From: an uncultured bacterium
GTDB taxonomy: Bacteria > Planctomycetota > Phycisphaerae > Phycisphaerales > SM1A02
DNA: 64,000 bases
Direction: 5' to 3'
NCBI GenBank assembly: GCA_903919715.1
Contig: CAIXJC010000012.1
Location: forward strand, 1-64,000
Under the pieces are notes generated by a model. That model was not told where the DNA came from. It worked only from the letters and a program-made list of their open reading frames with translations, and ran no database searches. The translations under genes were made by a program, and so were the position numbers. Positions within the stretch are counted from its first letter, which is position 1; each line of letters starts with the position of its first letter. Positions 1,307-2,998 of the stretch are shown here, piece after piece.

Positions 1307-2104
1307 TTACTTCTCGCCAAACATAATTCCAGCCGCGGCAAGTTGTTGATCGACTTGCGGCGCCCATCCTCGGTTTGCCGCAGGACTCGCTGGGCTTGGA
1401 TGCAAAACTTTATGAACGCGCGGTGGAGCGGCGGCTGATGCGCGTGGCGGCATCGCATCGATGACTCGCTGCGCGCGCTCTGCCGCGAATGCGCCAAATC
1501 CAACGACATTTTCTGGTTCGAGCGCATCAATCGCAGCTGCGAGCGCTTCATCGCACGCACTCTCAAGCGCTCGAACACTCGCCGATCCTCGCCCGACACG
1601 CGGCAATTTATCTGGAGTGAGATTCGCTCCCGTCTCTGACATAAACGCAAGCGGGCACCAGTTCCATATAAATGCATGACGAAAGAATGCGTCGGCGGTA
1701 CCGAATCGTTCGCGCGCCCACGACCAGACGCGCGCGCCGCTGACTTCGCTGCGAGTGCACGCAAATCCTTCGACGGGTCGCTTGGGATGCATTCGCATCG
1801 GCGCACCGATTTGAACGGTGCGTTCATCGATACCGAGAAAGTCCCGCACAGAAGCGACCTCTCCAAACGGCACGCCAGTTTGCGCCATTCCAAACGGTCC
1901 CGGATTCATGCCGACGAAAAGGACGGTTGGACGCATTCGCGCTCGCGCAAGAAATGCACAGTGCGCGGACCATGCGTATTCGAGCGGGTTATATGTGAAC
2001 GCCACGGGTGCCCCGAATTTCATCTCGCCGCACTTGTGCGCAAGGGTCGCGGCCGCGTGTTGCAATGCTGCCTGCGATGATGATTTATTTTGACACCGTT
2101 TCAT
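1307..2104 (-). CDS. SMUG1-like uracil-DNA glycosylase
   Basis: Removes uracil (and in the family also oxidised pyrimidines) from DNA as the first step of base excision repair. The 265-aa product is the usual SMUG1 length. Motif I 'GMNPGPFGMAQTGVPFG' (residues 65-81) carries the catalytic-region Asn67, and motif II 'HPSPASP' near the C-terminus carries the conserved His. Both match single-strand-selective monofunctional glycosylases rather than Ung. The first Met at 2104 is used; a later Met ('MKFGAPV') is possible. A TAGATT hexamer at 2119-2124 could be its own -10, so the terminator at 2174-2219 need not lie in its transcript. It is read away from coaD. Confidence 0.85.
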   Translation of the reverse strand: MKRCQNKSSSQAALQHAAATLAHKCGEMKFGAPVAFTYNPLEYAWSAHCAFLARARMRPTVLFVGMNPGPFGMAQTGVPFGEVASVRDFLGIDERTVQIGAPMRMHPKRPVEGFACTRSEVSGARVWSWARERFGTADAFFRHAFIWNWCPLAFMSETGANLTPDKLPRVGRGSASVRALESACDEALAAAIDALEPENVVGFGAFAAERAQRVIDAMPPRASAAAPPRVHKVLHPSPASPAANRGWAPQVDQQLAAAGIMFGEK

Positions 2105-2173
2105 CCTGAATACACAGGAATCTAGCGGATCAGGCTTGCGCGCAATCGTGGATTATGGGGGATCAACCAGCGC

Positions 2174-2219
2174 AAAAATAAAAAGGCCCCGCTCGGGGAG
2201 GCAGATCCGATGCGGGGCC
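2174..2219 (-). terminator. Rho-independent terminator of a leftward transcript
   Basis: The arms GCGGGGCC (2212-2219) and GGCCCCGC (2185-2192) are perfectly complementary over 8 bp. They are followed on the minus strand by a TTTTTATTTTT tract (complement of 2174-2184). A tighter alternative hairpin, CCCC-GAGC-GGGG (2187-2198), ends at the same tract. It faces left, yet no protein gene on the minus strand ends here, so it terminates something else (see the RNA candidate). Confidence 0.8.
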
Positions 2220-2401
2220 GATCCAGGGTTGTTCGTACGTTTCACGAGACGCTCGCGATCCGTTTTCTACCTCCTCAGTCGTTCACTTCACCGACTGCAA
2301 CAGAAATATGGGATTCCCGCCTCGCCGTGCAAATGAAGTTTGCAAGTTTTTTCACTTTCCACGCCCCGTGCGGTGGGTCAGATCTGTGTGTCTCTATCTT
2401 T
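2174..2401 (-). ncRNA. Candidate structured small RNA, about 230 nt
   Basis: This 320-bp gap between the glycosylase and coaD starts has no convincing ORF but has the makings of an RNA gene on the minus strand. A TAGGGT hexamer (complement of 2408-2413) shares its TA with the coaD -10, and a strong terminator lies at 2174-2219. In between are several local hairpins: 2359-2376 (CCAC/GTGG), 2329-2343 (GCAAA/TTTGC), 2276-2281 with 2292-2297 (CAGTCG/CGACTG) and 2245-2255 (CGAG/CTCG). I searched by eye for SRP RNA, 6S, tmRNA and RNase P signature sequences and saw none. Alternatively it is a long 5' leader with an attenuator for the glycosylase gene. Existence is inferred, not proven. Confidence 0.45.
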
Positions 2402-2425: not shown

Positions 2426-2998
2426 ATGGCAGGCGTCACTTCACGACATCATTTAGCGATCTATCCAGGCTCATTCGATCCCGTGACTTTGGGGCATTTG
2501 GATGTTCTCAGTCGCGCGCGGCGGCTCTTTGACGAGGTCATTGTTGCGGTCGGCCGCAATCCCGATAAGCCAGATTTTTTCCCAGTCGAAGAACGCGTGG
2601 CGTTGCTCGAACCGCTGATTGAAGAAATCATGCGGCGCGAGCCAGATGCAGCGCGCGTCACGATTGCGACCTATACGGGTTTGACCGTCGACTTCGCGCG
2701 GTCGCGCAATGCGTCTGGAATTATTCGAGGCATTCGCAATGTGACTGACCTTGCGTCGGAGTGCCAACTCGCAATCACAAATCGCCAAGTCGCAGGAATC
2801 GAAACTGTATTCGTCGTGACGGGCGAGGCTTTTGCGTTTCTTTCTTCAAGCCTCATTCGTCAGATCGCTGCGTTTGGCGGATCGATGGAAAAACTCAAGC
2901 CGTTCGTTCCGCCGAATGTTGCCAGTGCGATCGGCGAAAAAATGAGCGATCCCAATCATTCCCTCGCTCGTTTGGCGTTGGAGACTCAGGCCGACTGA
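2426..2998 (+). CDS. coaD: Phosphopantetheine adenylyltransferase
   Basis: Transfers AMP from ATP to 4'-phosphopantetheine to give dephospho-CoA, the fourth step of CoA synthesis, in the cytoplasm. The nucleotidyltransferase motif 'YPGSFDPVTLGH' sits at residues 13-24, including the (T/H)xGH signature. The C-terminal 'SSSLIRQIAAFGG' matches the family's substrate-binding helix. The product is 190 aa from this start, a little above the usual 160. The open frame extends upstream to 2210, but that part resembles no CoaD sequence and overlaps the divergent promoter. An ATG at 2402 is also possible. The TACACT hexamer 8 bases upstream and the absence of a ribosome site favour a leaderless start at 2426. 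Confidence 0.95.
   Translation: MAGVTSRHHLAIYPGSFDPVTLGHLDVLSRARRLFDEVIVAVGRNPDKPDFFPVEERVALLEPLIEEIMRREPDAARVTIATYTGLTVDFARSRNASGIIRGIRNVTDLASECQLAITNRQVAGIETVFVVTGEAFAFLSSSLIRQIAAFGGSMEKLKPFVPPNVASAIGEKMSDPNHSLARLALETQAD

Follow-up and report, generated by a model that had tools for sequence, protein, structure and literature searches.

A candidate conserved small RNA with an anti-Shine-Dalgarno-like loop, encoded near coaD in Phycisphaerales

We describe a well-supported candidate for a new conserved small RNA, encoded on the minus strand and divergent from coaD in the window (the whole 64,000-nt stretch of DNA that was analyzed; Table 1). The case for it, built on sequence comparison, combines conservation among relatives, covariation in a terminator hairpin, a fixed hairpin loop, enrichment of a promoter pattern upstream and independence from neighboring genes. 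We lean, with modest confidence, towards a stand-alone small RNA whose anti-Shine-Dalgarno (anti-SD) loop represses selected mRNAs in trans, a reading in which we infer transcription, the start site, mRNA pairing and repression. A first-pass annotation of the interval had suggested an undescribed structured RNA, and this suggestion gains support from the wide conservation, the compensatory changes, the lack of an Rfam match and the element's own upstream promoter pattern.

Table 1. Features of the candidate RNA and its neighbors, in window coordinates.
Feature	Position	Strand	Remark
Conserved core of the RNA	2173-2229	(-)	CCCUGGAUCGG, followed by the terminator hairpin (apical loop GCCUCC) and the U-tract
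Hairpin H3 (terminator stem)	2185..2219	(-)	12/12 pairs with compensatory changes, n=53 sequences
Apical loop GCCUCC, anti-SD-like	2197..2202	(-)	unchanged in 53/53
Conserved single strand CCCUGGAUC	2220..2228	(-)	UGGAU 49/53, CUGGAUC 39/53
U-tract UUUUUAUUUUU	2174..2184	(-)	read from sequence
Proposed transcript, ~120 nt	2176..2298	(-)	start predicted from promoter, end from U-tract
Hairpin H1 (CAGUCG/CGACUG, loop GUGAAGUGAA)	2276..2297	(-)	compensatory changes in 4/6 pairs, 13 genus sequences
AGGAGG, SD-like, between H1 and H2	2270..2275	(-)	genus comparison
Hairpin H2 (UCGCGAG/CUCGUGA)	2242..2258	(-)	compensatory changes in 3/5 counted pairs, 13 genus sequences
-35-like TTGCAC of the RNA's putative own promoter	2327..2332	(-)	pattern enrichment in relatives
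-10-like CATATT	2305..2310	(-)	75 nt before element; aligned in genus
coaD, divergent neighbor	2426..2998	(+)	-10 TACACT at 2412-2417
Uracil-DNA glycosylase, downstream in close relatives only	1307..2104	(-)	Pfam UDG 2.6e-08

An initial set of 30 loci had in common CCCUGGAUCGG or a near-identical sequence followed by a hairpin with a GCCUCC loop, with a U-tract in most. We then aligned 53 non-redundant sequences (alignment A3), after removal of near-duplicates (two differences or fewer) and of seven divergent matches (L076, L113, L122, L105, L111, L073 and L160). H3 was paired in 94.3% of cells in this alignment, which was fitted to the R1 structure and so favors it, and its covariation score was 0.348, compared with 0.197 in shuffles that leave relatedness in place (0/500 as high) and at most 0.137 in slid controls. 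Conservation of the hairpins in relatives had been set as a test by the first-pass annotation, and they proved to be conserved with compensatory changes; in an earlier set of 28 sequences, 5 of the 12 H3 pairs had already changed on both sides. The pair beside the bulge is unpaired in 28/53 sequences, and the first pair is G-U in 11/53, indicating that G-U pairs are tolerated. The most constant parts of the RNA are its unpaired segments, CUGGAUC and GCCUCC, the latter a complement of Shine-Dalgarno (SD) sites that is only six bases long and was itself contained in the models with which the 53 sequences were found. Among the seven divergent matches, L076 lacks GCCUCC and the other six retain it with a different flank; in four of these (L105, L111, L113 and L122), UGCAGAAG replaces UGGAUCGG.

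The core is widespread in the order. A DNA search of 101 genomes gave some match in 58 at E<=0.1, including several short matches due to chance, and the better matches beyond the genus fell on the last ~57 nt. The R1 covariance model matched 111/201 order genomes at E<=0.01, at least four of which (G010, G045, G158 and G203), and probably G197 and G218 too, match only through a second RNA described below; 88 order genomes matched below 1e-5 by our own count of rows, and 90/201 were without a match at the R1 threshold used. A second model, R2, matched 53/397 class genomes at E<=0.001, including seven outside the order from three families, all of which carry GCCCUGGAUCG and GCCUCC (7/7). Across the phylum, R1 matched 24/392 genomes, of which 19 belong to the same order and five, all weak matches, do not, and R2 matched 18/392 at E<=1e-4, all of the same order; these large-scale scans used stricter filters that lose weak matches, and a missing match in them is not proof of absence. 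The five weak genomes (G275, G421, G447, G508 and G566), whose loci were rescored by R2 at 35.6, 23.9, 20.6, 27.8 and 30.9 bits, were not among the R2 phylum matches at E<=1e-4. Of these, G275 carries CCCUGGAACGG, and its hairpin lacks GCCUCC; we did not count it, and it is possibly a distant relative. Two matches of family f2 (L184 and L185) show a hairpin with GCCUCC and no flank. In one genome R1 matched twice with the same score, at sites separated by 3.5 kb (G214:C32:79347 and 82828).

Upstream of the element, the pattern TTGCnn-N16-18-nAnnnT occurred within 230 nt in 38/60 non-redundant relatives (the 53 of A3 plus L177-L183, with L184, L185 and L186-L191 outside the set), compared with 5.6 (sd 2.3, max 13) in 200 shuffles, which again leave relatedness in place. 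A stricter pattern with GAA before the -10 was present in 24/60 (0.7 in shuffles), and the classical TTG(A/C)-TA pattern in only 7/60 (1.3 in shuffles). In the window, conservation starts near 2332, and the boxes at 2332-2327 and 2310-2305 lead us to expect an RNA start near 2298 and an end near 2176. The predicted length, from promoter pattern and U-tract, is therefore about 120 nt in this genome, and not the roughly 230 nt first proposed; the box-to-element distance ranges from 18 to 175 nt among relatives, and the RNA may thus be shorter or longer in other lineages. The 228-nt stretch 2174-2401 folds only slightly better than shuffles (z -1.72; 11/200 as good), and the 123-nt proposed transcript, chosen after the comparison, performs better (z -2.84; 4/200 as good).

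The TAGGGT that had been put forward as the promoter of the longer RNA, overlapping the coaD -10, is indeed present on the minus strand (2413-2408), but is kept in only 6/14 close relatives. Immediately ahead of the coaD ATG, 13/14 have a TAnnnT box (in the one exception, L095, the coaD start is placed at another position), and the overlap is therefore more plausibly the coaD promoter seen from the opposite strand. Because only 8 nt separate the -10 TACACT from the ATG, coaD itself is probably leaderless. The strong intrinsic terminator noted earlier is present at 2219-2174 (-). A script requiring TTTTT and six or more T within 8 positions agreed that the window holds only one other clear U-tract terminator, at about 16857 (-), with strengths of -25.2 kcal/mol for the element, -23.8 for the other and -13.1 for the next best.

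The genes around the element vary. Among 80 coaD loci, 62 had an element match (one, L086, cut by a contig end) and 18 had none; two of the latter begin at coaD itself, leaving 16/78 informative misses. In 56 matching loci the element lies upstream of coaD on the opposite strand, and in six (L140, L143, L147, L151, L152 and L161) it lies beyond the gene after coaD. Counted from the element, coaD is within about 1.5 kb in 51/58 loci, partly from the same organisms as the 80. In the seven genomes outside the order, tblastn found no coaD in flanking stretches of ~2 kb at best (in two of the genomes, one side extends only a few hundred bases), and no glycosylase was found in the same limited stretches. 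The next gene is UDG, Thy1 or NDH2-type when it runs in the direction of the element, and aldehyde dehydrogenase, FabA-like or metallo-beta-lactamase when it faces it, with CMD in either direction; these names come from Pfam matches of only ten proteins, as automatic ORF picking in the GC-rich loci gave many spurious antisense ORFs. Since the downstream gene varies, the element does not depend on one neighbor, and the fixed co-oriented downstream gene of a cis leader or attenuator was not found. The link to coaD is common in the order but may not be required.

No Rfam 15 family matched the interval, either at the gathering cut-off or at E up to 10, where only chance snoRNA matches appeared, all on the opposite strand, and a scan of 20 diverse relatives gave no match. 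This agrees with the earlier reading by eye, which had seen no SRP, 6S, tmRNA or RNase P signature. The SRP RNA model (RF00169) did not match at the element, nor did those for tmRNA and RNase P RNA, which were applied to the element only; the SRP RNA of the genome lies elsewhere (G000:C57:11462-11558). The 6S RNA model (RF00013) matched neither the element nor any other place in its own genome, and its matches in 4/31 relatives, two of them over the cut-off, are on contigs other than that of the element. We found no description of such an RNA in the literature on planctomycete small RNAs and Phycisphaerae noncoding RNA covered by our search, which left subscription journals mostly outside. A 2017 survey reportedly contains 224 candidate RNAs.

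By its fixed anti-SD loop and variable stem, the candidate would belong with anti-SD-loop small RNAs, a generic kind and not a homologous family. The alphaproteobacterial alpha-r14/NfeR1 ('cuckoo') RNAs have an ultraconserved CCUCCUCCC in loops on divergent stems (PMC10746234); in both systems an anti-SD motif is fixed in an unpaired loop and the stems vary strongly. However, the alphaproteobacterial RNAs have three CCUCCUCCC loops (PMC10746234), whereas the planctomycete RNA has a single hairpin with a GCCUCC loop, that of the terminator, adds the conserved 5' flank CUGGAUC and belongs to another phylum. LhrC carries UCCC in loops and in its terminator loop and blocks an SD, and RNAIII, RsaE, SprD and FsrA are named in the same source as UCCC-motif sRNAs of low-GC Gram-positives (PMC4132741). 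These share with our candidate C-rich loops, including a terminator loop, theirs pairing with SD sites (PMC4132741), but differ in motif and phylum; for both groups, homology was judged through the Rfam scan alone. The Rhodopirellula-1 motif, one of 104 candidate RNAs, is also a candidate motif in Planctomycetes (and Proteobacteria); its status as an RNA is rated ambiguous and a cis-regulatory role probable, and it has no Rfam number (PMC2864571); we compared it by description only, and the two may be identical.

Because known RNAs of the same design block ribosome binding, we take trans repression by SD pairing as the most likely function. Leftward transcription of an RNA gene of about 120 nt would be driven by its own promoter (2332-2305), and the transcript would be ended by its own terminator hairpin. 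That hairpin would double as the business end, its stem drifting with compensatory changes and its GCCUCC loop staying fixed. The loop, helped by the single strand CCCUGGAUC, would base-pair at the ribosome-binding sites of selected mRNAs, blocking their translation, and the 5' hairpins, which vary by lineage, would probably stabilize the RNA or tune its targets.

Such an RNA would be expected to have few targets, as SD sites look scarce. With mechanically placed ORF starts, SD-like sites were found at 9/46 window ORFs, compared with 2/46 and 5/46 at two background positions, and a leaderless-type -10 box at 11/46, compared with 2 in the background. Low SD use is reported for the single planctomycete species studied in one paper (PMC5397173). 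A 6-mer complement of the loop occurred in one of the 46 window ORF start regions, and this instance is simply the element read on its opposite strand. With its fixed anti-SD loop and its conservation in several families of the class, the RNA would offer a concrete entry to planctomycete RNA regulation, and the persistence of an anti-SD RNA where few genes have an SD becomes a testable question.

The RNA could instead be a mimic of rRNA. CUGGAUC and the CCUCC of the loop repeat both halves of CUGGAUCACCUCC, the 16S rRNA 3' tail, which was present in 6/6 16S loci read from relatives (the 16S gene of the genome itself was not found). The RNA might then imitate the tail and titrate a tail-binding factor (e.g. 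Era) or its mRNA partners, an explanation we regard as unlikely. Among random 12-mers with 60% GC, 0.2% have a 7-mer in common with the tail, CUGGAUC is present in 39/53 elements, and Era recognizes GAUCA and the CCUCC of the tail (PMC10582724). Yet the likeness, although striking, was noticed only afterwards, the flank does not keep the second A of GAUCA, which the same review names as important for Era (PMC10582724), and the four divergent relatives with UGCAGAAG for UGGAUCGG retain GCCUCC. In its fuller form, a split mimic (CUGGAUC ... CCUCC) in a class where SD sites look scarce, competing with the tail of the ribosome either for a factor of assembly or initiation or for the minority of mRNAs that have an SD, the idea likewise has a small chance of being right.

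We find it similarly improbable that the element lacks a function in trans and is conserved as a transcription terminator or a 3'-UTR element. The window does contain a textbook terminator, and in several f6 genomes (L045, L049, L051, L055 and L074) the element lies closely 3' of a co-oriented ORF, so placed that it may there be a 3'-UTR-derived RNA; we take the C-terminus of these ORFs, judged by eye, to look like a PEP-CTERM sorting signal. However, a terminator needs neither a fixed loop nor a 5' flank, and here the stem changes freely and GCCUCC does not. The upstream promoter pattern in 38/60 relatives also argues against it, as does one group in which the hairpin is retained without a U-tract and a separate terminator lies downstream, from which we conclude that the hairpin is not kept merely to terminate.

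The 5' part of the RNA differs between lineages. The first-pass annotation had counted at least four local hairpins; local hairpins are present, and we count three in the proposed transcript, H1 and H2 with covariation in the genus and H3 with covariation across the order. H1 was paired in 94.8% of cells in 13 genus sequences and H2, the weaker, in 77%; by one of five measures, further pair types, the genus alignment was no better than shuffles (255/500). Between H1 and H2, GAGGAGG was present in 10/13 and GGAGG in 13/13 genus sequences. Pairing of the GCCUCC loop with such upstream GGAGG-like sequences was dropped as a proposal, since complement 5-mers were not enriched upstream of the 60 elements (34 vs 36 in shuffles); complements of the flank were not enriched either (42 vs 50), and the slight enrichment of SD-like 5-mers (56 vs 42; 7/200 shuffles as high) was too weak for us to draw on. 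A longer form of the RNA occurs in one group of coaD loci (16 aligned), where it has loops UAAGGGACUC (14/16) and CUGAGGAGC (12/16), a separate terminator and compensation in 23/45 pairs (0/500 shuffles as high). In one group (L129, L120, L123, L126, L127 and L114), GGGCCC hairpins follow one another along the 5' part and have G-rich loops, for example GAGCGGUGA.

The GGA-like loops of several lineages, among them the two of the longer group and GGAGGGA in L117, recall CsrB/RsmZ, and CsrA is encoded in 59/61 relatives. A CsrA-titrating role of the 5' hairpins is very unlikely as a general explanation, although a CsrA sponge in some lineages is possible. Over the 110 nt upstream of the 60 elements GGA was not enriched (126 vs 137, sd 9, in shuffles), ANGGA barely differed (30 vs 27), the many GGA loops of CsrB/RsmZ were not found, and in some forms only some 20 nt separate the promoter pattern from the element, leaving no room for such hairpins.

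An attenuator leader for the glycosylase gene, the alternative first suggested for the interval, is highly improbable: in the window the co-oriented gene does lie 69 nt beyond the U-tract, but it was found near the element in only 6/58 loci, all of the window's genus, and elsewhere the next gene is another one, often convergent. An inverted repeat acting as DNA is just as remote. Covariation alone cannot separate RNA from a DNA cruciform, but G-U pairs are tolerated at the first H3 pair, and a promoter pattern lies on one side of the repeat and a U-tract on the other.

Separately from the anti-SD-loop RNA, we observed a second, different short RNA candidate, consisting of CCCCCGGAAGGGCUCGGCGUGAGGCUUGCCUCCGCCGGGCC and a U-tract, at G000:C57:23494-23546 (L081 1501-1553) and in L198-L207. 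It had no Rfam match in L081. This candidate is nearly unchanged in 10/11 order genomes read, L203 differing in the hairpin, and has a TTGAC about 40-60 nt upstream in 8/11.
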